From Clostridiales bacterium (GTDB lineage Bacteria > Bacillota > Clostridia > Christensenellales > Aristaeellaceae): 64,000 nucleotides of DNA. The position numbers and the translations under genes are program-made. Numbering within the stretch: the first letter of the stretch is position 1; every line of letters starts with the position of its first letter. The stretch is from NCBI GenBank assembly GCA_015056175.1, contig SVGT01000007.1, positions 1 to 64,000 on the forward strand. The letters run 5' to 3'. Under the pieces are notes generated by a model. That model was not told where the DNA came from. It made no database searches and was given only the letters and a program-made list of their open reading frames with translations. Of the stretch, positions 11,499 through 33,723 are shown in pieces.

Positions 11499-11593
11499 GC
11501 CGCCTCCCCGAGAGGCGGCCGGGGATGGAGATAAAACTGCGCGCGCGGCGTAATACAGCACAGCCGCACCGTATGTAACCCCGGTTGTGCTGT
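11499..11593 (+). other. Two intercistronic hairpins
   Basis: GCCGCCT / AGGCGGC (11499-11519) and the longer ACAGCACAGCC / GGTTGTGCTGT (11555-11593, one G-T pair). Neither has a T tail, so processing or mRNA-stability elements are more likely than terminators. Confidence 0.5.
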
Positions 11594-11652
11594 GTTGCGC
11601 GGTAAACGCAACGGACACCCTACTCTATACTATGCACAAGGAGACGAATGGA

Positions 11653-13197
11653 ATGAAAAAGTCTACTCTTCTCACCATCGTTGCGCTGGTTCTGGCGCTG
11701 GCGATGGGCGTCAGCGGCACCATGGCTTACCTGCAGGACACCGACGACGACGTGAACGTGATGACCCTGGGCAACGTGGACATCGAGCAGATCGAGCTCG
11801 AGCGCGATGAAGAAGGCAATCTGCAGAACTTCACCCAGAACAAGGATATGTATCCTGCCGTGGGTACCTACGCTTGGGATCCCGAGCTGGTTTACTGGCC
11901 CGATGTGAGCGCTACCGCTTCTTCCCCCGTGTTTGACGATGAAAAGCTGGCCAACGTGGTCGACAAGTTCGTGTTTGTGGAAAACACCGGCAAGTCCGAT
12001 GCGTATGTCCGCACCATCTTCGCTTTCGAAGTCGGCGAATACGATTTTAACACCGTGATCGGCCATGAAACTTCCCCCCTGGTCCATATCAACAACAATG
12101 ACAAGAATACCAGTGAAACCGAAAAGGTCCACTGGGATTTTACCTGGTTTGAAACCCCTGTGACCATCGACGGCAACAAGTACGTGCTGGCTGAAGCGCT
12201 GTACCTGGGCGCCAACAGCAAGCAGGGCACTCCTGAAGAAGGTATCCTGGTTCCCGGCGCTACCTCCTATCCCAGCCTGCTGCAGCTGTTCCTTGATCCC
12301 TCCGCCACCAACGAAGACATGGTGAAGCTGGATGGCAACGCCAACGGCACCTATGACGTGCTGGTCGTTTCCCAGGCTGTGCAGACCGCCGGTTTTGCCG
12401 ATGCCAAAACCGCTCTGAACACCGCCTTCGGCACCACCTCTGCCACTTGCCATCCCTGGATGGCCGAAGCTGACAATGGCCAGCCCCCCTACATCGAATC
12501 CCCCGTGTTCCCCGGCATGGTGACCAACAACGAAGAACTGGCTGCCGCTATCGCTAACGGCGAAACCGAGATCAAGCTGGCTGCCGGTGAATACAACATC
12601 CCCGCCGCTGCGAAGGGCAAGACCCTCACGCTGACCGGCGTGTCCCCCGAAAAGACCACCATCACTGTTGTTCCCGCCGGTCAGGGCGAAGCCAACGGCC
12701 AGCTGGACTACAACCTGGACGGCTCCACCGTCACCTTCAATGACCTGACCATCAAGACCAACAGCCAGCTGTATGCCGGTTACGCCCGTCTGAGCGCCGA
12801 CTACAACAACTGCGTGATCCAGAACACCTATAACCTGGGTGCCAACTCTGACAACACCTTCACCAACTGCACCATCAACATCTCCAACGAATATCTGCGT
12901 GTGAACGGCGCCGCCAAGGCCACTTTTGACAAGTGCACCTTCAACACCGACGGCCGCGCGATTCTGGTTTACCAGGACGGCAGCAATATTCATCAGGAAG
13001 TGACCGTGAAGGATTGCACCTTTAACGCCACCGCTCCCGCCAAGACCTGGAACGGCATCCACGTTGCCGCTGTGTCCATCGACGGCACCAACGGCACCTA
13101 CACCGTGAACCTGGAAGGCACCAACACCGTCGACGCCGACTTCAACGGCCTCTGGCAGATCAAGACCGGCGACGCCAACGTGACTGTGAACGAATAA
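11653..13197 (+). CDS. Large SipW-type secreted protein with beta-helix-like C-terminus
   Basis: The start at 11653 follows AAGGAGACG; the track ORF begins 22 codons early. The 514-residue product has the SipW signal GTMAYLQDTDDDVNVMTLGN and a matrix domain to about residue 290. That domain holds KFVFVENTGKSDAYVRTIF, also found in shortened form in the protein at 13313. The C-terminal 220 residues repeat NCTI-, KCTF- and DCTF-type turns (FTNCTINIS, FDKCTFNTD, VKDCTFNAT), again pointing to a parallel beta-helix. It is the largest surface protein of the locus, and structural or adhesive function is inferred. Confidence 0.75.
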   Translation: MKKSTLLTIVALVLALAMGVSGTMAYLQDTDDDVNVMTLGNVDIEQIELERDEEGNLQNFTQNKDMYPAVGTYAWDPELVYWPDVSATASSPVFDDEKLANVVDKFVFVENTGKSDAYVRTIFAFEVGEYDFNTVIGHETSPLVHINNNDKNTSETEKVHWDFTWFETPVTIDGNKYVLAEALYLGANSKQGTPEEGILVPGATSYPSLLQLFLDPSATNEDMVKLDGNANGTYDVLVVSQAVQTAGFADAKTALNTAFGTTSATCHPWMAEADNGQPPYIESPVFPGMVTNNEELAAAIANGETEIKLAAGEYNIPAAAKGKTLTLTGVSPEKTTITVVPAGQGEANGQLDYNLDGSTVTFNDLTIKTNSQLYAGYARLSADYNNCVIQNTYNLGANSDNTFTNCTINISNEYLRVNGAAKATFDKCTFNTDGRAILVYQDGSNIHQEVTVKDCTFNATAPAKTWNGIHVAAVSIDGTNGTYTVNLEGTNTVDADFNGLWQIKTGDANVTVNE

Positions 13198-13215
13198 TCA
13201 TTCTCAAGCAATTCA

Positions 13216-13277
13216 CCGTCCACCCCTTCGGGGGTGGGCGGCGATCAAAGGGCATGGTATCCACGCCCTTTGATCGC
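13216..13277 (+). other. Tandem strong hairpins between matrix genes
   Basis: Hairpin 1 is CCGTCCACCCC-TTCG-GGGGTGGGCGG, an 11-bp stem with a stable UUCG tetraloop. Hairpin 2 is GCGATCAAAGGGC / GCCCTTTGATCGC, a perfect 13-bp stem with an 11-base loop. There is no T run after either. They probably protect the 3' end of the upstream mRNA or lower expression of the downstream gene. Confidence 0.7.
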
Positions 13278-13312
13278 CGCAGGTCAAGGCATTGTGAAAG
13301 GCAGGTCATCCT

Positions 13313-14020
13313 GTGAAAAAACGTCCCCTGCTGATCCTGTGTCTGCTGTTGTCCCTGCTGCTCCTGCTCAAAGGCAATGCGCTGTGGCAGCACGCCTCCG
13401 TGGCTTTTGCACAGCTGAAATCCTGCCTCGCCCCCGCTGCTCCCCAGACGCTGAAAGCGGACAGCCGTTTTCTGATCCGGGACGGCATGGGCGGCCTGAC
13501 AAGCGAACGCAGCACCCATCTGGACGCCGCCGCCTATCCCGACAGCTTTGATTTTATGCCCACCGTGCCCTGCACGCTGGACGGACATAAATACTTGCTT
13601 TGGGATGAGCAGGTACTGAAGGGATCTACGGACAAATTCCTGGTGGTGGAAAATCAGGGCGATATGCCCGTGTATTTCCGCACCTGCATTGCCCTGCCCG
13701 TGTGCGATATGCAGCGGTACGTGGTGTTCAACCGCAATACCGCAGACTACCGGTGGACAGATCATGTGCCCGTCACCATTGAGGGACGGAATTACGTCAT
13801 GTATCTGGCCGAATACAGACAGGCGCTACCGCCCGGTCAGTGCGCCCCGGCGTCGCTTTTGCAAATGGCGCTGCAGAAAAACGCGCCCCAGGATCAGGTG
13901 ATCACCTTTGATATCCGCGTCGTCACCCAGCTTGTCGGCGCGGAGGGCTTTGAAGGTCTCAGCGCCACAGAGGTGCTTCAGCAGACCATGCCCGTCACAG
14001 ATACATTCAACCCATTCTAA
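13313..14020 (+). CDS. Secreted paralogue of the matrix domain, without a SipW motif
   Basis: GTG start, 235 residues. A hydrophobic signal or anchor (RPLLILCLLLSLLLLLKG) opens the protein, but the GTxAYxT...N.F motif of its neighbours is absent. The body parallels the matrix domain of the 11653 protein: KFLVVENQGDMPVYFRT against KFVFVENTGKSDAYVRT, and VPVTIEGRNYVMYLAEY against TPVTIDGNKYVLAEALY. It is therefore a shortened relative that may stay membrane-anchored or use the general signal peptidase. A TapA-like assembly or minor-subunit role is a guess. The pilin gene starts 28 bp downstream. Confidence 0.68.
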   Translation: MKKRPLLILCLLLSLLLLLKGNALWQHASVAFAQLKSCLAPAAPQTLKADSRFLIRDGMGGLTSERSTHLDAAAYPDSFDFMPTVPCTLDGHKYLLWDEQVLKGSTDKFLVVENQGDMPVYFRTCIALPVCDMQRYVVFNRNTADYRWTDHVPVTIEGRNYVMYLAEYRQALPPGQCAPASLLQMALQKNAPQDQVITFDIRVVTQLVGAEGFEGLSATEVLQQTMPVTDTFNPF

Positions 14021-14048
14021 ACTGACATTCAGAAAGGAGCGGTGCAGC

Positions 14049-14684
14049 ATGATTTTCCGCCGTCCGTTTGCCCGGCTGGCGCTGATTGTAGCCGCAGTGC
14101 TCATTGCAGCTGTTGCCGTACCCGCCACGATTTCCTATATCGCCGTGCGTACGGATCCCATCGTGAACACCTTTGAGCCGGATTACACCCAGACCGCCGA
14201 CGCCGTGGTGGACGTGCACATTGTGAAAACCGTCACCAATCTGGCAGAGCCGCCTGTCGGCCCCGAAAATTTCCAGTTCCTGCTCACCCGCACGGATACG
14301 GAAAAGGCCATCAAGCTCACCTCCGGCAGCGACGGACGCGCCTTTGGCATGCTCACCTTCTCCAAGGAGGAGGCCGGCAAAACCTATACCTACCGTCTGA
14401 CCGAGGTGAACGATGCGCGCGAGCACATCCTGTATGACGAGACGGAGCACATCGTCACCGTGACGCTGAAATTGAACGATGACGCCACGCTGACCCCCAC
14501 CGTCACGCTGGACGGCCTGAAGGTGGACAAGGTGGAGGTCACCTTTACCAACATCCACACCACCGAGATCCTGCCCCCCGATACCGGCGATGACGCACAG
14601 CCCCTGCTCTACATCTGCATGGTGCTGCTGGGCGTCGCAGGACTTGCTGCACTGGTCATCACCGCAAAGAAACGCACCGCATAA
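14049..14684 (+). CDS. Isopeptide pilin-domain protein with PPDTG sorting signal
   Basis: ATG at 14049 follows AAAGGAG. The 211-residue protein has an N-terminal hydrophobic segment ending in a SipW-like pattern (ATISYIAVRTDPIVNTFEPD). A Spy0128/FctA-type pilin domain follows (about 52-172). The expected Lys (IVK, K60), Glu (RLTEV, E119) and Asn (TFTN, N168) are in place to form an internal isopeptide bond. The C-terminus is a sorting signal: PPDTG (176-180), a hydrophobic helix, then KKRTA. PPDTG fits the (S/P)PxTG pattern used by sortase B of Clostridioides difficile, and a class B sortase gene lies at 7483. It is probably the wall anchor or base of the fibre. Confidence 0.85.
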   Translation: MIFRRPFARLALIVAAVLIAAVAVPATISYIAVRTDPIVNTFEPDYTQTADAVVDVHIVKTVTNLAEPPVGPENFQFLLTRTDTEKAIKLTSGSDGRAFGMLTFSKEEAGKTYTYRLTEVNDAREHILYDETEHIVTVTLKLNDDATLTPTVTLDGLKVDKVEVTFTNIHTTEILPPDTGDDAQPLLYICMVLLGVAGLAALVITAKKRTA

Positions 14685-14832: not shown

Positions 14833-15888
14833 ATGAAACAGCCAATCGCCAAACTGCTCCGCGGCCTGTCCACCATCCTGGTGATCTTTGCCATCATCAT
14901 CGCCTTCCTGATCTCCGGCATGCGCATTTTCGGTTTTCAGGTGTACGGCGTGCTGACCGGCTCCATGGAACCCACCTATCCCGTGGGATCGCTGATCTAC
15001 GTCAAGGATGTGGACGCCAATACCCTGCGCGTCAACGACGTGATCACCTTCAGCCTGTCCCCCAATGTGGTGGCTACCCACCGCATCGTGGAGCTGGTGC
15101 CCGATGAAGCCAACCCCGCCGTGACCCTGTTCCGCACCAAGGGCGACGCCAACGACGATGTGGACGCATCGCTGGTGGGCGAACGCAACATCATCGGCAA
15201 GGTCAGCTTCTGCGTGCCCATGCTGGGCTACATGGCCAGCTACATCCAGGAGCCTCCGGGAATCTATGTGGCCATCATCGTGTGCCTGCTGATGATCGGC
15301 TTTGTGGTTTATACCGATTCCCTGACCGGCGAAAAGCCCCGGAAAAATCAGCCCGCTCAGGCACAGAAGAAGCCTGCTTTCGATTTTGTGGCCGCCGTCA
15401 ACAAGCTGTCCGTCAAGCTGATGGGCAAGCCGCTGATCAGGCAAAAGCCCCAGCAGCAGCCCAGGCAGGGCTACCAGCCTCAGCAGCAGCCTTACCAGTA
15501 TCAGCAGCAGTACAACCCCCAGGCGCAGCAGCCCTACGGATATCAGCAGCAGCCTTACCAGTATCCCCAGCAGCAGTACAATCCCCAGGCACAGCAGCAG
15601 CCCTACGGATATCCCCAGCAGCCTTACCAGTACCCCCAGCAGCAGTACAATCCCCAGACACAGCAGCAGCCCTACGGCTATCCCCAGCAGCCTTACCAGT
15701 ACCCCCAGCAGCCCTACAATCCCCAGGCACAGCAGCAGCCCTACGGCTATCAGCAGCAGCCTTATCAGTACCCCCAACAGCAGTACAATCCGCAGGCGCA
15801 GCAGCAGCCCTACCAATATCCCCAGCAGCCCTACAATTATCCGCAGCAGGGTGTGCAGCACCCTTCGAACAATCAGAATCAACAGTAA
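14833..15888 (+). CDS. sipW: SipW-type signal peptidase I with Gln/Pro/Tyr-rich repeat tail
   Basis: Residues 1-165 are a signal peptidase of the ER/SipW type: membrane helix (12-30), catalytic Ser in TGSMEPT (S44), His instead of Lys in VVATHRIVE (H83), the RTKGDAND box (about 101-108), and a second membrane helix (about 142-160). Such enzymes process TasA-like precursors, and at least four lie just upstream. The unusual part is residues about 204-351, almost only Gln, Pro, Tyr, Asn, Gly and Ala, in 23-residue repeats (QQQPYGYPQQPYQYPQQ). After a two-helix membrane domain with an outward-facing active site, this tail should lie in the cytoplasm; the topology is inferred. Its function is unknown. 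Confidence 0.92.
   Translation: MKQPIAKLLRGLSTILVIFAIIIAFLISGMRIFGFQVYGVLTGSMEPTYPVGSLIYVKDVDANTLRVNDVITFSLSPNVVATHRIVELVPDEANPAVTLFRTKGDANDDVDASLVGERNIIGKVSFCVPMLGYMASYIQEPPGIYVAIIVCLLMIGFVVYTDSLTGEKPRKNQPAQAQKKPAFDFVAAVNKLSVKLMGKPLIRQKPQQQPRQGYQPQQQPYQYQQQYNPQAQQPYGYQQQPYQYPQQQYNPQAQQQPYGYPQQPYQYPQQQYNPQTQQQPYGYPQQPYQYPQQPYNPQAQQQPYGYQQQPYQYPQQQYNPQAQQQPYQYPQQPYNYPQQGVQHPSNNQNQQ
15478..15855 (+). repeat. 69-bp tandem repeat within sipW
   Basis: The marker CCCTACGG recurs at 15532, 15601, 15670 and 15739, and as CCCTACCA at 15808, an exact 69-bp (23-codon) period. Units are near-identical with synonymous changes, so copy number may vary between strains. Confidence 0.9.
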
Positions 15889-15936: not shown

Positions 15937-15965
15937 TTGACGCATGCAAAAATACGTGCTACAAT
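15937..15965 (+). promoter_or_regulatory. Promoter of the B12 uptake operon
   Basis: TTGACG (15937-15942), a 17-bp spacer and TACAAT (15960-15965). Transcription would start about 20 bp before the riboswitch. Confidence 0.8.
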
Positions 15966-15990
15966 AAATTGACAACTGAACAGATAAAGT

Positions 15991-16168
15991 AGATACGGTT
16001 CGATGAGCCATCGCTCGGTAGATGTAAAAGGGAATCCGGTGCAAATCCGGAACAACCGCCATTACTGTCATTGCCTATGGGGAAGCAGAAGCCATTGAAG
16101 CTACGCTTTGAGAAGGCGCTTCCTGCGCGTTGATCGCGCCGGCATAAGTCAGGAGACCTGCCGTATCT
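15991..16168 (+). promoter_or_regulatory. Cobalamin riboswitch (aptamer)
   Basis: The conserved cores are present: GGGAATCCGGTGCAAATCCGG, then CCGCCATTACTGT, and near the 3' end GTCAGGAGACCTGCC. The ends close a perfect 8-bp P1 stem (AGATACGG 15991-15998 with CCGTATCT 16161-16168). It should bind a cobalamin and switch off the downstream uptake genes when the vitamin is plentiful. Confidence 0.93.
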
Positions 16169-16287
16169 TACGGGTCCAACACGATTTGGTGTGAAGAGTG
16201 CAGCCGGTTTATCATGATATTCCTCGGAATGGTGCTGCGCTTTGCGCCGCATCCGTTGCCGTTTCTTTTCCGTGATGAATTTGCTGT

Positions 16288-16320
16288 ACTCTTCCGGCCT
16301 GCGTGTCGGAAGAGTTTTTT
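16288..16320 (+). terminator. Riboswitch expression-platform terminator
   Basis: ACTCTTCCG / CGGAAGAGT stem followed by TTTTT. Its left arm can instead pair with GAAGAGTGCAG (16193-16203) to make an antiterminator, so the layout supports transcriptional control. AGGAGG of the first gene lies just beyond. Confidence 0.85.
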
Positions 16321-16338: not shown

Positions 16339-16608
16339 ATGGCTGATGAAAAGCAAATCGCGTGGGCTGTGACGCAACTGAAGGAAAAAGGCGCCGCCCT
16401 CGCCCGCCTGCCGAAAAAAGATGACTTTGATCCCGTGACGCTGTCCCGCATCAAAGCCTTCCTGGGCCCCTGGCCCCGTGCACTGGAGGCTGCCGGTCTG
16501 AAAATGAAAAAAGCAGCGCCAATCCCCGCAAGGAAACGCAGGCACGCTTCCTCGCCTGACCGTTCCCCCTCCCCCGATATGAAAACTCATGATAATGAAA
16601 AGGAGTAA
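16339..16608 (+). CDS. Small protein with a homing-endonuclease-associated repeat
   Basis: The ATG at 16339 sits 7 bases after AGGAGG; the track ORF start lies inside the terminator. The 89-residue protein has one copy of the HNH/homing-endonuclease-associated repeat (SRIKAFLGPWPRALEAAGLK, about 36-55), a small DNA-binding helical unit. A basic, disordered C-terminus (PARKRRHASSPDRSPSP) follows. There is no nuclease domain. It is the first gene after the B12 riboswitch and 4 bp before the lipoprotein gene. Its role is unknown; a regulator is possible. Confidence 0.65.
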   Translation: MADEKQIAWAVTQLKEKGAALARLPKKDDFDPVTLSRIKAFLGPWPRALEAAGLKMKKAAPIPARKRRHASSPDRSPSPDMKTHDNEKE

Positions 16609-16612
16609 AACC

Positions 16613-17311
16613 ATGAAAAAGTTTGCTGCCCTTCTGATCGCCCTGATGCTGCTCCTCTCCTTCTCCGCCTGCGCGGAAGAAGCCCCTGCCGCCGTCAACG
16701 TATACGTATCCATCACCGATGATACCGGCGCGCTGGTGCTGGCCTATGTCCCTGTCGCCGTCACGGATACGGATGAAGACGGCATTGTATCCATCCACGA
16801 TGCGCTACTCTGCGCCCATACCGCCAATCACGAAAACGGCGCCGACGCCTTTGCCAGCGCGCAGACCGAGTATGGCATCTCCATGACCCGTCTGTGGGGC
16901 GTTGAAAACGGCGGCAGCTACGGCTATTACCTGAACGACGCCTCCGCCTGGAGCCTGATGGACCCCGTGCAGGAAAACGATCACGTGAAAGCGTTTGCTT
17001 ACACCGATCTTGCGGCCTGGAGCGACACCTACTGCTTCTTTGACGCCGTCCATGCGGAAGTACAGCCCGGCGCAGAAATCGTGCTGACGCTGTCTGTGGC
17101 CGGCTACGACGAAACCTGGGCGCCCGTTACCCTGCCCGCCGCCGACGCCGTGATTACCGTGAACGGCGAAGCTGCCGACGTCATGACCGATGCGGAAGGC
17201 AAGTGCACCCTGACCTTTGATGAGGAAGGCGTGTATGTGATCTCCGCCAAATCCGAAACCCAGACCCTGGTGGCTCCCGTGTGCGTTGTCACCGTGGCTG
17301 CCGCGCAATAA
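16613..17311 (+). CDS. Lipoprotein with a transcobalamin-like (DUF4430-type) beta domain
   Basis: The ATG at 16613 follows AAAGGAG. The 232-residue product has a lipoprotein signal (LLSFSAC) and then a domain of about 115 residues patterned like the C-terminal beta domain of transcobalamin/intrinsic factor: a DAL segment, RLWGVENGGSYGYYLND, and a closing ENDHVKAFAYTD. The last 90 residues look like an Ig-type beta sandwich (GAEIVLTLSVAGY...DEEGVYVISAKS). With the riboswitch and ECF genes around it, extracellular cobalamin capture or hand-over is the best inference. The match is by pattern, not alignment. Confidence 0.65.
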   Translation: MKKFAALLIALMLLLSFSACAEEAPAAVNVYVSITDDTGALVLAYVPVAVTDTDEDGIVSIHDALLCAHTANHENGADAFASAQTEYGISMTRLWGVENGGSYGYYLNDASAWSLMDPVQENDHVKAFAYTDLAAWSDTYCFFDAVHAEVQPGAEIVLTLSVAGYDETWAPVTLPAADAVITVNGEAADVMTDAEGKCTLTFDEEGVYVISAKSETQTLVAPVCVVTVAAAQ

Positions 17312-17317
17312 GGACGT

Positions 17318-18856
17318 ATGAAAAAGACACTTTTTTCTCTGCTGCTTTGCCTGACGCTGTGCGTGGGATGCTTCACGCCTGCGTCCGGCGCAGCCTCGGA
17401 TGCGCCGGATGCGCTCATCCGGGGCATTCTGCATTGCCTGTATCAGCAGGGCAATGCCGATCATGCCCAGCAGTATCTGGACGATTATCTTCCCTCCGCA
17501 GCCGGGATCGGCGCCGAATGGCAGGTCATCGCGCTGTGCCAGACGGGCAGCTACGATTTTTCCGCCTATCGCAATGCGCTGAGCAGTTATCTTGCAGATA
17601 ACCAGGTCGCATCCGCCTCTACAAGGCTGAAATTTGCGCTGGCGCTGCTGGCGTCCGGCGACCGGGAAAACCCCTACATCGCCTCCACCATGGCGGATGC
17701 GCCGGGAAAACAGGGCATTATGAGCATCGTGTACGCGCTGCACATGATGAACAACCATTGCACAAGCCCCCTCATGACCCAAGAGGACGCTGTCCGGCAA
17801 TTGCTTGCGCTGCAGCTTGAGGACGGCGGCTGGGCGATCAGCGGCAAGGCAGGCGACGCGGACGTAACCGCCATGACGGTGCAGGCGCTCACGCCCCATC
17901 GGGATGACGAGGCCGTCCAAAGCGCCATCGACCGCGCCGTCGGGTTCCTTTCCTCCCGCCAGACGGAGGACGGCGGCTATATCAGCTACGGCGTTCCCAA
18001 TCCGGAAAGCGCCGCGCAGGTATGGATCGCACTTTGCGGGCTGGATATCAACGCGCTTTCCGACAGCCGCTTCATCAAAAACGGCTGCACCGTGCTGGAC
18101 GCCATTTTGTCCTACCGGCTGGAAGATCACAGCTTCAGCCACACGCTGGGCGGCAAAAGCAACGCCAACGCCACCGTGCAGGTGCTTCATGCGCTCATCG
18201 CCCAGCAGCGGATGACGGAAGGCAAAACGCCGCTGCTGATCCTGGATGCGCAGCAGCAAAGCGATACCAGTTTTTCCCTTTCGTCCCTGGGCTACAAGCC
18301 CATCGCCGCAGCTGCGGTACTGGCGCTTGCTGTCATCGTCTGCATCGTGCTGCTGCTCCTCAAAAAGAAGAGCCCCAAGAATTTCCTGCTGGTGGCTCTC
18401 TGCGCGCTTATGCTGATCCTGTTCATCTTCACCACCAGCTTTTCATCCACTGCGGATTACTACAAAACCGCACCCGAAAAGAAAGCCGCCACAGGCAAGG
18501 TCACCCTGTCCATCCTCTGCGACAAGGTTCCGGAGCTGGAAAGCAGCGACTATTTACCCCGGGACGGCGTCATTCTCCCCGCCACCGTCTTTGATATTGC
18601 AGAGGGCGATACCGTGTACACCGTACTGACGGATGCGGCGCGGGCACACGAGATCCACCTGGAAAGCAGCGGCCCGGACGGCATGATCTACATGCGCGGC
18701 ATTGATAACCTGTATGAGCTGCAGTACGGCGATCTGTCCGGCTGGATCTACTTTGTCAACGGCACGTCCCCGTCCCTGAGCTGCGATCAGTACACCTTGC
18801 AAAACGGAGATACCATCCTCTGGCGCTATTCCTGCGAAATGGGCAGCGACCTGTAA
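17318..18856 (+). CDS. Membrane-anchored intrinsic-factor/transcobalamin-like protein
   Basis: This 512-residue protein starts 6 bp after the lipoprotein stop. It has a signal peptide (about 1-27), then an alpha/alpha-toroid of the prenyltransferase/terpenoid-cyclase/cobalamin-binding type (about 30-320) with the repeats QLEDGGWAISG and QTEDGGYISYG each followed by helices. Two adjacent membrane helices (about 325-352 and 358-378) are joined by a short KKKSPKN loop. The C-terminal 115 residues are a DUF4430-like beta domain (GDTVYTVLTDAA, LSGWIYFVNGT, NGDTILWRYS). Animal intrinsic factor has the same toroid plus beta domain. The helix pair would leave both domains outside. Cobalamin binding is inferred from domains, riboswitch and ECF context. 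Confidence 0.78.
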   Translation: MKKTLFSLLLCLTLCVGCFTPASGAASDAPDALIRGILHCLYQQGNADHAQQYLDDYLPSAAGIGAEWQVIALCQTGSYDFSAYRNALSSYLADNQVASASTRLKFALALLASGDRENPYIASTMADAPGKQGIMSIVYALHMMNNHCTSPLMTQEDAVRQLLALQLEDGGWAISGKAGDADVTAMTVQALTPHRDDEAVQSAIDRAVGFLSSRQTEDGGYISYGVPNPESAAQVWIALCGLDINALSDSRFIKNGCTVLDAILSYRLEDHSFSHTLGGKSNANATVQVLHALIAQQRMTEGKTPLLILDAQQQSDTSFSLSSLGYKPIAAAAVLALAVIVCIVLLLLKKKSPKNFLLVALCALMLILFIFTTSFSSTADYYKTAPEKKAATGKVTLSILCDKVPELESSDYLPRDGVILPATVFDIAEGDTVYTVLTDAARAHEIHLESSGPDGMIYMRGIDNLYELQYGDLSGWIYFVNGTSPSLSCDQYTLQNGDTILWRYSCEMGSDL

Positions 18857-18878: not shown

Positions 18879-19745
18879 ATGAAACGCCTGGACAGTATGA
18901 ACCCTATCGCCGTATCGGCGCTGTATCTGTGCGCCGCGCTGATCCCGCTTGTGAAAACAGACCCCGTCCTCGCCTGCCTCTTCGCATCCGGCGCACTGCT
19001 GAATTTGCTGCTTTACTGCGGCCAGAAGGGCGGCCACGGCTTTTCTCTGCTGCTGTTTTTCGGCATTGCGCTGCTCAACCCCCTGGTCTCCCACAAGGGC
19101 GTGACGGTGCTGTTTGTGATGAACCACAACCCCATCACCCTGGAAGCGCTGCTCTACGGCGTCTTTACCGGCGGAATCGTGCTGGCATCCCTGTACTGGT
19201 TCCGTACCTACTCCCACTTGATGACCTCGGACAAGCTTTTGTATCTCTTTGGCGCCCTGTCGCCCAAGCTGTCCCTTGTCCTGTCCATGGCGCTCCGATA
19301 CGTGCCGCTGTTTGGGCAGCAGATCAAAAAGGTACAGCAAGCCCAGACGGCATGCGGCCTGTACAGGGAGGATAACCTCCCCGACCGCTTCCGGGGCGGC
19401 ATGCGCATTTTTTCCGTCATGATCACATGGGCGCTTGAAAACGGCATCACCACCGCCGACAGCATGACCGCCCGCGGCTACGGCCTGCAAAAGCGCTCCC
19501 GTTTTTCTCTGTTCAAATGGACGGCGGGCGATATAGTGCTTCTGTGCGCATCGCTGCTGCTTTGCGTCTGCTCGCTGCTGCTTTTGCAAAACCATACCTT
19601 CACCTTTTACCCCGTGCTGCATATGACATCGCCCAATCCCCTTGTAACGCTTGGCTATATCTGCTACACATTATTGATCCTTCTCCCCGCGATCATCCAT
19701 GTAAAGGAGGTGCTCAGATGGCGCTGCTTGACGTCCGGCATGTAA
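18879..19745 (+). CDS. ecfT: ECF transporter transmembrane component EcfT (CbiQ family)
   Basis: The 288-residue membrane protein has several hydrophobic segments and the cytoplasmic coupling region of EcfT: ALRYVPLFGQQIKKVQQAQ, then DSMTARGYGL, the Ala-Arg-Gly motif that docks on the ATPases. It couples ATP hydrolysis to toppling of the S component. AAAGGAGG precedes ATG. Its 3' end overlaps the ATPase gene by 28 bp, indicating translational coupling. Confidence 0.9.
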   Translation: MKRLDSMNPIAVSALYLCAALIPLVKTDPVLACLFASGALLNLLLYCGQKGGHGFSLLLFFGIALLNPLVSHKGVTVLFVMNHNPITLEALLYGVFTGGIVLASLYWFRTYSHLMTSDKLLYLFGALSPKLSLVLSMALRYVPLFGQQIKKVQQAQTACGLYREDNLPDRFRGGMRIFSVMITWALENGITTADSMTARGYGLQKRSRFSLFKWTAGDIVLLCASLLLCVCSLLLLQNHTFTFYPVLHMTSPNPLVTLGYICYTLLILLPAIIHVKEVLRWRCLTSGM

Positions 19746-21355
19746 GCTTCACCTATCCCCTGCAAACGCATCCCGCCGTCTGCGATTGCACCTTTTCCGT
19801 GGAGAAGGGAGAGTTTGTGACCGTCTGCGGCCCCACAGGCAGCGGCAAATCCACCCTGCTGCGGCTGTTCAAAAAGGAGATCATGCCCCTGGGCGATATG
19901 CAGGGCACGGTGCTCCTTAACGGCACGGAGCGGGATCAATTGGACGACCGGGCCTCTGCCTACCTGATCGGGTATGTGATGCAGCGGCCGGAGCAGCAAT
20001 TGGTCACGGACAAGGTCTGGCACGAGCTGGCCTTCGGCCTTGAAAACATGGGCGTGGACAGGCGCTCCATCGGCCGCCGCATTGCGGAAATGGCCGCCTA
20101 TTTCGGCATTGAAAACTGGTTTGAAAGGGACGTTTCCACCCTGTCCGGCGGGCAAAAGCAGCTGCTGAATCTGGCAGCCATCATGGTCATGCAGCCATCG
20201 CTCCTGATCCTGGATGAGCCTACTGCCCAGCTGGATCCCATCGCCGCCTCCGATTTTATCGCCACACTGCACAAGATCAACCGGGAGCTGGGCACCACCA
20301 TCCTGATCACCGAGCACCGTCTGGAGGACGTGATCCCCGTGTCCGACAAGCTGCTGGTCATGCAGGACGGCGCCATCGCCCATTTTGACGCCCCGAGATG
20401 CGTGCTGAGCCGTCTGGATCAAAACGATCCGCTGCTCCACGCCATGCCCGCAGCCGCCCAGGTATACCACCAGACCGGCATGCACGGCCCCTGCCCCATG
20501 ACCGTCCGCGAGGGGCGCGATTATATCCAGACCTATTTTGACAACCGCCTGCCCGCGTGCGATGAACAGTCCGCGCCGCAGACGGCGGAAAATGCCCTTT
20601 CCTTCCGCCACGTATCCTTCCGCTACGAAAAAAACAGCCCGGACGTGCTGAAAGATCTGACCTTTGACGTGAAACAAGGCGAGATCTTCTGCATTCTGGG
20701 CGGCAACGGCTCGGGCAAAACCACCACGCTGCTCACCTGCGCCGGGCTGCTGCGCCCCTACGACGGCGAAGTGCGCGTCTTTGGCAAAAAAATCAGGGAT
20801 TACAAGAACCAGTCCCTGTATCAGAATTGCGTCACCCTGCTGCCGCAGGACGTGCAGACCCTGTTCCTGCGCCACACCGTGAGGGAGGAGCTTGCAGACA
20901 GCCGTGCGGAAGCCAATCTCCTGCCTGTGGATCTTCAAAAACTTCTGGACAAGCACCCCTATGATCTGTCCGGCGGCGAACAGCAATTGGTGGGTCTTGC
21001 CAAGGTGCTTGCCACCCATCCCCGCCTTTTGCTGATGGATGAGCCCACCAAGGGCGTGGACGCCGCAGCCAGACGCCGCCTGATCGACATTCTCAAAAAG
21101 CTGCGCGACGAGGGCATGACGCTGGTGATCGTCACCCACGACGTGGAATTTGCCGCCCGCTGTGCGGATCGCTGCGCCATGTTCTTCCGGGGCAATATGG
21201 TATCTGTCGGCACGCCCAGGAGCTTCTTTTGCGAAAACAGCTTCTATACCACCGCCGTCAGCCGCATGAGCCGCGGCTACTATCGGGGCTGCGTCACGGT
21301 AGAGGACCTGGCTGCCCGTTGCCTGGAAAACGGCCCGCGGGAGGTGCATGCATGA
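19718..21355 (+). CDS. ecfA: Fused ECF ATPase (EcfA-EcfA, two ABC domains)
   Basis: The start is ATG 19718 behind AAAGGAGG; the track ORF extends 67 codons too far upstream. The 545-residue protein holds two full ABC domains. Domain 1 has GPTGSGKST, LSGGQKQ and LLILDEPT; domain 2 has GGNGSGKTT, LSGGEQQ and LLLMDEPTKGVD. Most ECF systems encode the two ATPases separately; here they are one chain, which suits a dedicated transporter. It overlaps ecfT upstream and the S-component gene downstream (ATGA). Confidence 0.93.
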   Translation: MALLDVRHVSFTYPLQTHPAVCDCTFSVEKGEFVTVCGPTGSGKSTLLRLFKKEIMPLGDMQGTVLLNGTERDQLDDRASAYLIGYVMQRPEQQLVTDKVWHELAFGLENMGVDRRSIGRRIAEMAAYFGIENWFERDVSTLSGGQKQLLNLAAIMVMQPSLLILDEPTAQLDPIAASDFIATLHKINRELGTTILITEHRLEDVIPVSDKLLVMQDGAIAHFDAPRCVLSRLDQNDPLLHAMPAAAQVYHQTGMHGPCPMTVREGRDYIQTYFDNRLPACDEQSAPQTAENALSFRHVSFRYEKNSPDVLKDLTFDVKQGEIFCILGGNGSGKTTTLLTCAGLLRPYDGEVRVFGKKIRDYKNQSLYQNCVTLLPQDVQTLFLRHTVREELADSRAEANLLPVDLQKLLDKHPYDLSGGEQQLVGLAKVLATHPRLLLMDEPTKGVDAAARRRLIDILKKLRDEGMTLVIVTHDVEFAARCADRCAMFFRGNMVSVGTPRSFFCENSFYTTAVSRMSRGYYRGCVTVEDLAARCLENGPREVHA

Positions 21356-22038
21356 TCATCATCCGCAACGCCCGTACACGATGCGTGCTGCAAAAAGCCG
21401 TCCCGCTTTTAATCATCCCGCTGGTGGTGCTGCTGGGCGCAGTGCTGCTGCGCGGACAGCATTACCTGCTCATCTCCTTCGCAGTAGCGCTGCTATCCCT
21501 GCTGCTTTTCATCGCAGGCTTTGAAAAAAAACAGACCGGCGCACGAAGGCTGGTGATCGCCGCCGTCATGACCGCCCTTTGCATCGCGGGCCGATTCATT
21601 CCCCTGTTTAAGCCCATCACGGCGCTGACCGTGATCACCGCCATCTACCTGGGCGGCGAAACGGGGTTTCTCGTAGGTGCGCTCAGCGCGCTGCTCAGCA
21701 ATTTCTCCTTCGGTCAGGGGCCCTGGACGCCTTTCCAGATGCTGGCCTGGGGGCTGATCGGCCTGCTGGCGGGCGCACTTTCCAAGCCATTGGAAAAAAG
21801 CAAGTGGCTGCTGTGCATTTTCGGCGTGCTGTGCGGCATTGCCTACTCCTTCATCATGGATATCTGGACCGTGCTGTGGTACAGCAGCGGTCTGGATGCA
21901 ACGCTGTATCTGAGCGCCATCGTTACCGCACTGCCTCACACCATCCTCTACGCCGTTTCCAATTTCCTGTTCCTGTATCTCTTTGCCAAACCCTTTGGCG
22001 AAAAAATGACCCGCATCAAGCTGAAATACGGCGTATGA
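21352..22038 (+). CDS. ECF transporter substrate-binding (S) component, probably cobalamin
   Basis: The ATG at 21352 overlaps the ATPase stop (ATGA). The 228-residue protein is wholly hydrophobic, with about six to seven membrane helices. It has S-component features: ALCIAGRFIPLFKPITA, and FSFGQGPWTPFQMLAWGLIGLLAG. Substrate is not readable from sequence alone. The B12 riboswitch and cobalamin-binding-like surface proteins in the same operon point to cobalamin or a related corrinoid (CbrT-like role). A B12 precursor is the main alternative. Confidence 0.82.
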   Translation: MIIIRNARTRCVLQKAVPLLIIPLVVLLGAVLLRGQHYLLISFAVALLSLLLFIAGFEKKQTGARRLVIAAVMTALCIAGRFIPLFKPITALTVITAIYLGGETGFLVGALSALLSNFSFGQGPWTPFQMLAWGLIGLLAGALSKPLEKSKWLLCIFGVLCGIAYSFIMDIWTVLWYSSGLDATLYLSAIVTALPHTILYAVSNFLFLYLFAKPFGEKMTRIKLKYGV

Positions 22039-22070
22039 AAAAAGCCCCCGAAAACGGGGGCTTTTTGTTG
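22038..22070. terminator. Bidirectional terminator between the B12 operon and the minus-strand genes
   Basis: AGCCCCCG-AAAA-CGGGGGCT with T runs on both strands. It ends the B12 operon and the convergent minus-strand unit. Confidence 0.93.
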
Positions 22071-33577: not shown

Positions 33578-33596
33578 TTGTGTGTTAAGCGAATAT

Positions 33597-33686
33597 CGTT
33601 CTCTGCGACTGACGGAAGTAACGTGGGTAACCACGGGGAAACAGAGGGCGTACACGGGATGCCCCATTTCGCCGACCGTCTGGGCG
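33597..33686 (+). promoter_or_regulatory. ZTP (pfl) riboswitch
   Basis: The aptamer shows P1 (CGTTCTCTG / CAGAGGGCG), the GACTGACGG internal loop, the P2 hairpin ACGTGGG-TAA-CCACGGGGA, and the separate 3' domain CCGACCGTCTGGGC. These match the pfl/ZTP motif. It senses ZMP/ZTP, which build up when 10-formyl-THF is short, and should switch on the operon that follows. Confidence 0.92.
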
Positions 33687-33723
33687 CACATACTCGAATC
33701 GGAGTAAGTGTACCCTTTTTTGA
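33682..33723 (+). terminator. ZTP riboswitch terminator
   Basis: The stem starts inside the aptamer's 3' CTGGGC: GGGCGCACATACTC pairs with GAGTAAGTGTACCC (two mismatches, one G-T), followed by TTTTTT. Ligand binding would block its left arm. Confidence 0.8.

Follow-up and report, generated by a model that had tools for sequence, protein, structure and literature searches.

The F gene (17318..18856, + strand) encodes a protein of 512 amino acids that is probably a tethered, two-lobed corrinoid clamp, similar to intrinsic factor, that would feed the B12 ECF transporter of the neighboring genes. F is located in the window, by which we mean the whole 64,000-nucleotide stretch of Clostridiales DNA analyzed here. 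B12 capture at the surface of Gram-positive gut bacteria is largely unknown, while the Bacteroides side has been well studied, and the F family represents a compact and testable candidate for B12 capture in many gut Clostridia. F would provide ECF transporters with an extracellular capture step, which has been thought unneeded for them, and it bears on a proposal made in 2007 that bacteria of this type were the source of intrinsic factor and transcobalamin in animals.

Domain composition and membrane topology of F

F is an uninterrupted reading frame in the list of open reading frames of the window. It starts with ATG, has an AAGGA ribosome-binding site just 5′ of the start, and begins 7 bases past the stop codon of the preceding gene. 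All of its features are on the + strand. The amino terminus consists of MKK and then a hydrophobic stretch (residues 1-19), and we assign a signal peptide to residues 1-25 (17318..17392) based on this hydrophobic segment and on a helix at residues 2-18 of the AlphaFold2 model. The model was built from a 69-sequence alignment and has a mean pLDDT of 92.6 and a pTM of 0.62, with the two domains placed apart and their overall arrangement less certain. Residues 30-300 (17405..18217) fold as an alpha/alpha-toroid in AlphaFold2, with pLDDT mostly >95, and were also identified as such by Foldseek; in Pfam, residues 137-297 gave matches that did not reach the Pfam cut-offs, with an E-value of 2.3e-5 for SQHop_cyclase_C and of 0.0015 for Prenyltrans. 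Hydrophobicity, homolog statistics and AlphaFold2 identify two membrane helices after the toroid, one at residues 326-347 (18293..18358) running from outside to inside, and one at residues 353-372 (18374..18433) running from inside to outside. They are separated by a cytosolic turn at residues 348-352 (18359..18373) with the cationic stretch KKKSPKN. Residues 393-505 (18494..18832) form a DUF4430 or transcobalamin-type beta-grasp (SLBB) domain according to Pfam, AlphaFold2 and Foldseek, and DUF4430 itself is matched at residues 430-505 with an E-value of 5.9e-15. The first-pass annotation, which had been made from the sequence without database searches, described F as a signal peptide, a toroid, a helix pair with a KKKSPKN loop and a DUF4430-like domain. 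These parts are now seen by Pfam, hydrophobicity and AlphaFold2, and the profile search that it had proposed against the DUF4430 family gave a match of 55.9 bits, over the curated Pfam cut-off of 23.8.

In 80 of 83 distinct fused homologs, the toroid is followed by exactly one pair of neighboring membrane helices, and with this many proteins sharing the helix pair we conclude that the hairpin is not due to chance. A signal-peptide-like amino terminus is present in 81 of the 83. Across the fused homologs the loop between the helices contains on average 4.05 lysine or arginine residues as compared with 0.04 aspartate or glutamate residues. According to the positive-inside rule, a loop that is rich in K/R and poor in D/E is cytosolic, which places both lobes of F outside of the cell. 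The proposal that a helix pair would keep both halves outside is therefore supported by the positive-inside statistics of 80 homologs.

The lobes of the F homologs are tethered at unequal lengths. The beta domain begins a median of 15 residues past helix 2 (IQR 14-16) and the interhelix loop has a median length of 8, while the linker from the toroid to helix 1 ranges from 12 to 179 residues. Linkers of more than 40 residues are on average 74% P, T, S, E, A, D, G, N and Q, which is a disordered-type composition. The difference in tether length suggests that the beta lobe is fixed at the membrane and that the toroid is carried on a flexible arm. In the mechanism that we propose, the hairpin of two membrane helices would hold both lobes on the outer side of the cell. 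The DUF4430 beta-grasp lobe would sit next to the transporter, at a distance of approximately 15 residues from the membrane, and the toroid lobe would swing on its flexible linker and catch a corrinoid. The toroid would then close on the beta lobe, and we infer that the ligand would be sandwiched between them as it is in intrinsic factor.

Alternatively, the DUF4430 lobe could bind the corrinoid alone, without a sandwich of the intrinsic factor type, and the toroid could do something else, for instance bind a different component of the surface or a B12 carrier of the host. The span of linker lengths fits such a division of labor, as does the finding that many Clostridia encode the toroid as a protein of its own, secreted or SLH-anchored, while DUF4430 stays at the membrane. 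However, the toroid and DUF4430 are adjacent and keep their order even as separate genes, and according to Burroughs et al. (PMC1796856) both lobes touch the ligand in the animal carriers. We consider binding by a single lobe unlikely and favor the two-lobed clamp.

The riboswitch-controlled operon and its CbrT-like transporter

The operon that contains F is on the + strand. A promoter-like pair of hexamers, TTGACG-17-TACAAT, in which TG precedes the second one, occurs at 15937..15965 and is proposed from consensus only (10/12 matches). A cobalamin riboswitch (RF00174, 94.4 bits, E 3.4e-22) follows at 15979..16179, and a whole-genome scan showed that it is the sole cobalamin riboswitch in the genome. 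At 16288..16315 is a terminator-like hairpin of 11 pairs (6 GC) and then TTTTT, which, judging by its sequence, is possibly the expression platform of the riboswitch. The first gene of the operon (16339..16608) encodes a small HNH_repeat protein of 89 amino acids from its ATG (PF18780, E 1.5e-6, above the cut-off) or 101 amino acids from an alternative GTG start at 16303. It is followed by U (16613..17311), which encodes a secreted surface protein of 232 amino acids with a beta-grasp-like amino terminal domain and an Ig-like domain, and then by F. Directly 3′ of F are T (18879..19745), the ECF transmembrane (CbiQ/EcfT) component (PF02361, E 1.7e-8); A (19718..21355), with two fused ECF ATPase domains (TIGR04520, E 1.3e-99); and S (21352..22038), a CbrT-like substrate-specific component identified by ECF_trnsprt, ECF-ribofla_trS and PDB 6fnp_A. 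An intrinsic terminator with a 12-pair hairpin and a T-rich tail closes the operon (22039..22066). With T, A and S immediately downstream and RF00174 upstream, F does lie beside an ECF transporter in one riboswitch-controlled operon, as had been proposed from the sequence.

The substrate-specific component points to vitamin B12. When S was compared with the PDB, the sole match (E 9.5e-10) was 6fnp_A, which is chain A in the structure of the B12-specific transporter ECF-CbrT, and the best PDB match of T is an EcfT sequence that is also found in the 6fnp entry. The genome encodes an MtgC/MtbC-like corrinoid protein and a methylaspartate mutase S subunit, and neither corrin-ring methyltransferases nor a corrin-ring pathway are visible in it. 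There are only two tetrapyrrole-methylase matches in the genome, and we read them from size and sequence as a protein of 291 amino acids with the size of RsmI and a probable MazG-type fusion. Since no corrin-ring pathway is visible, the bacterium appears to need an external corrinoid. The system resembles ECF-CbrT of Lactobacillus delbrueckii (6fnp, PMC5997447) in its CbrT-like S and in the EcfT-type best match of T. ECF-CbrT works without a binding protein outside the cell and relies on an ECF module that is shared, whereas the operon in the window encodes a dedicated module with fused ATPases and two surface proteins.

Based on these assignments, we suggest that the operon would be turned on when cellular cobalamin is low, that the closed clamp would deliver its corrinoid, which we infer to be B12, to the CbrT-like S component, and that S would import it by ATP-driven toppling. 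Secreted U would probably act as an outer first catcher or as a scaffold in the cell wall. In ECF transporters generally the substrate is bound by the S component alone, and thus an extracellular clamp may be dispensable. We give an even chance to the broader proposal that gut Clostridia have a subclass of ECF transporters that, instead of depending only on S, receives B12 from a tethered clamp homologous to intrinsic factor, with the toroid reaching out and the beta lobe located at S. If true, the hand-over step would be new for ECF transporters, and F would be a living bacterial counterpart of a protein family for which such bacteria may have been the source in animals.

A related ligand also deserves consideration. 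The operon could import cobinamide, another cobamide precursor or cobalt instead of complete B12, in which case F would bind that ligand. CbiQ/CbiO-type subunits are common to cobalt importers, and cobalt transport is also found under cobalamin riboswitches (PMC11477304). S is CbrT-like, however, and not CbiM, and the genome has no corrin-ring methyltransferases that would need cobalt, an argument that leaves room for corrinoid precursors. We regard a ligand of this kind as quite improbable and B12 as the likely substrate of the clamp and transporter.

The other two products of the operon are less well defined. U is the conserved first large gene of the operon and was modeled by AlphaFold2 with a pLDDT of 95, and 3 of 28 U homologs carry a Gram_pos_anchor (LPXTG). 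The amino terminal domain of U may be a divergent relative of DUF4430: hhalign gave a collinear alignment with an E-value of 4.8e-4 but a probability of 13.5%, and the fold search was unsupportive, with mainly Ig folds and no transcobalamin in the Foldseek top 50. The HNH_repeat protein is a stand-alone domain and the only one in the genome. We identified homologs in 28 other loci, positioned just 3′ of the riboswitch or 5′ of the operon, with the core motif KAFLGPWPRALEAAGLKxP. The gene is found after a second riboswitch, between F and T, in L031 and L043, and after the riboswitch ahead of T in L041. The HNH_repeat protein appears to track the riboswitch and is possibly a regulator; we found no description of this small protein in the open-licence literature.

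Structural resemblance to animal B12 carriers

Comparison of the F model to the PDB with Foldseek returned human intrinsic factor (2pmv) as the top match, with an E-value of 4.8e-10. Intrinsic factor, transcobalamin and haptocorrin occupy all of ranks 1-14, and their alignments extend over more than 500 columns and include both domains. The first-pass annotation had staked its reading on F being predicted to form an alpha/alpha-toroid plus a beta domain, and this is the fold that was obtained, with the three animal carriers as its best matches in the PDB. The rmsd between F and the carriers is about 24 Å because the model holds the two lobes of F apart, and identity in the structural alignments is approximately 11-15% overall. 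The isolated beta domain of human transcobalamin (5no0) aligned to F with a target-normalized TM of 0.78 in Foldseek.

The resemblance is much less apparent in sequence. The DUF4430 profile of the F family scored 6.1 bits on human intrinsic factor, compared with a maximum of 3.8 bits among 1000 shuffles, and the F-family toroid profile scored 3.2 bits, which is not above its shuffles; the intrinsic factor query was checked against PDB chains 3kq4_A and 2pmv_A. Sequence-profile searches of the PDB with F did not return the animal carriers, which were found by fold comparison and by the direct comparison with intrinsic factor. When structure is set aside, the sequence points to only a faint kinship between F and the carriers. 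A search of viral structures found nothing. The likeness to animal intrinsic factor, transcobalamin and haptocorrin (2pmv, 2bb5 and 4kki) consists of the two domains, a toroid and then a transcobalamin-type beta-grasp. The animal proteins are soluble and secreted and have a plain linker, whereas F has a membrane hairpin with a cytosolic turn in the place of the linker. We propose that F would work like intrinsic factor but, given this hairpin, do not file it in the animal carrier family.

The best sequence matches of F are squalene-hopene and drimenyl diphosphate synthases, which would allow the toroid to be a squalene-hopene or class II terpene cyclase enzyme with an incidental link to B12 import. 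The catalytic motif of class II terpene cyclases is DXDD. A DxD is conserved in the F family (D180 in 96% and D182 in 100%), but the fourth position is valine in 93% of the family (DxDV), F has one toroid and not two, and the Foldseek E-values of the animal B12 carriers are better than those of cyclases by a factor of roughly 10^5. With the DXDD motif incomplete and the matches below the Pfam and NCBIfam cut-offs, we rejected a terpene cyclase for the F toroid, and we consider a cyclase role highly improbable.

Distribution, two-gene equivalents and origin of the hairpin

When 150 other genomes from the family were examined, 11 had an F homolog (12 matches including the window's own), and one genome of the same genus (G015) is without the F gene. 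Among GTDB species genomes, we found at least 560 relatives in gut Clostridia, including one in the isolate Pseudoruminococcus massiliensis. The gene order U-F-T-A-S is kept in 47 of 87 distinct loci. There are 79 testable loci, which are those with at least 500 bases upstream, and 44 of them have a same-strand cobalamin riboswitch immediately 5′ of the operon; in the remaining 35 the model search gave no riboswitch at the expected place, and only 6 counted matches occurred elsewhere in F loci. Under the Rfam models, shorter aptamers pass the gathering score in two loci (L042 and L066), fall just below it in a third (L060) and are weak in a fourth (L023). The co-occurrence with B12 genes in related genomes, on which the first-pass annotation had also made its reading depend, is strong and consists of cobalamin riboswitches and the CbrT-like ECF transporter. 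F belongs to a conserved family in gut Clostridia, the halves of which are often separate genes, and is not a rarity.

Individual loci showed further variation. Two have a second cobalamin riboswitch inside the operon, between F and the ECF genes (L031:11704-11836 and L043:11675-11807). In another, an FMN riboswitch lies past the end of the B12 ECF operon and is encoded on the other strand (L042:16571-16686, - strand). One has a tandem pair of toroid genes (L095:9950-12375), and we recognized no DUF4430 domain in the stretch covered.

The DUF4430 clade of F is represented in 104 of the 291 genomes of a sample drawn from the whole class. The toroid and DUF4430 are separate adjacent genes before T, A and S in most of 20 loci; a large SLBB/Ig surface protein is often upstream in the split-gene loci, and many of these operons have a riboswitch. 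In L121, the toroid gene ends with a terminal membrane helix and RIRKRQKVKR, and 2 bases further on is a DUF4430 gene that begins with MKK and a signal anchor. The toroid gene of L159 ends in ...AAIVLIRRRYAQK-stop and overlaps the DUF4430 gene by 14 bases, and the sequence MLKNKRIVLPIIIVVL...SAENYYNEA of that DUF4430 gene corresponds to ...VLLLLKKKSPKNFLLVALCALM...STADYYKTA of the window. In both loci, the signal anchor of the stand-alone DUF4430 gene is a homolog of helix 2 of F, and L165 and L169, from the family of L159, have the joined form. The presence in relatives of adjacent anchored genes, one a toroid with a membrane helix and the other a membrane helix with DUF4430, indicates that the hairpin is such a pair joined, or that a joined gene was later split. 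According to an unrooted ATPase tree, the arrangement must have switched between joined and split at least 6-7 times, which fits either fusion or fission, and both forms can be viewed as one machine that is built as one gene or as two. It has next to no probability that the hairpin arises artificially, from reading through an overlooked stop codon or frame boundary between two genes. Although two-gene versions exist with the short gap in L121 and the overlap in L159, F is a single open frame in the window, as it is in about 80 independent homologs that come from many assemblies.

The combination of these domains has been anticipated. As described by Burroughs et al. 2007 (PMC1796856), bacterial SLBB and toroid proteins occur with the domains in either order, and their operons contain CbiO and CbiQ and often a second surface SLBB protein. 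The same paper predicts B12 scavenging for these proteins, relates them to the animal B12 carriers, and predicts the transfer of such a gene to animals. F has in common with them the domain pair, the CbiO/CbiQ operons and the second SLBB-type surface protein. As described there, those proteins are secreted or Gram-positive-anchored with directly fused domains, whereas F is split by a hairpin, and the available portion of PMC1796856 mentions no hairpin split, riboswitch or CbrT link. The first-pass statement that no B12 receptor with this topology was known stands for the hairpin and not for the general idea, which was predicted in the 2007 paper. We found no description in the open-licence literature of a hairpin between the lobes, of the two-gene equivalents, or of the linkage to a riboswitch and CbrT. 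We conclude that the topology with a hairpin is new, together with its origin and distribution, the connection to CbrT and a riboswitch, and the conserved small HNH_repeat protein, and that the idea of a B12 scavenger made of a toroid and SLBB was already known as a prediction. BtuF/BtuCD and the Bacteroides B12 surface lipoproteins, namely BtuG, BtuH and the DUF4465 proteins (for the last, PMC13398666), have folds that are unrelated to F and use another type of importer. Their role, that of a surface binder feeding an importer, is analogous.

Elsewhere in the window, a cluster of secreted-protein genes is located at 11587-14684 (+). One member has an FctA isopeptide domain (E 1.9e-12), and two others have amino termini that read as TasA/camelysin-like with no Pfam match. 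The cluster is followed by an S26 signal peptidase (14833-15888, +) that looks SipW-like and has a long carboxy-terminal tail of repeated PYQYPQQ/PYGYQQ units. The cluster is possibly a surface fibre locus. A ZMP/ZTP riboswitch (RF01750, 56.6 bits) is present at 33595-33692 (+).
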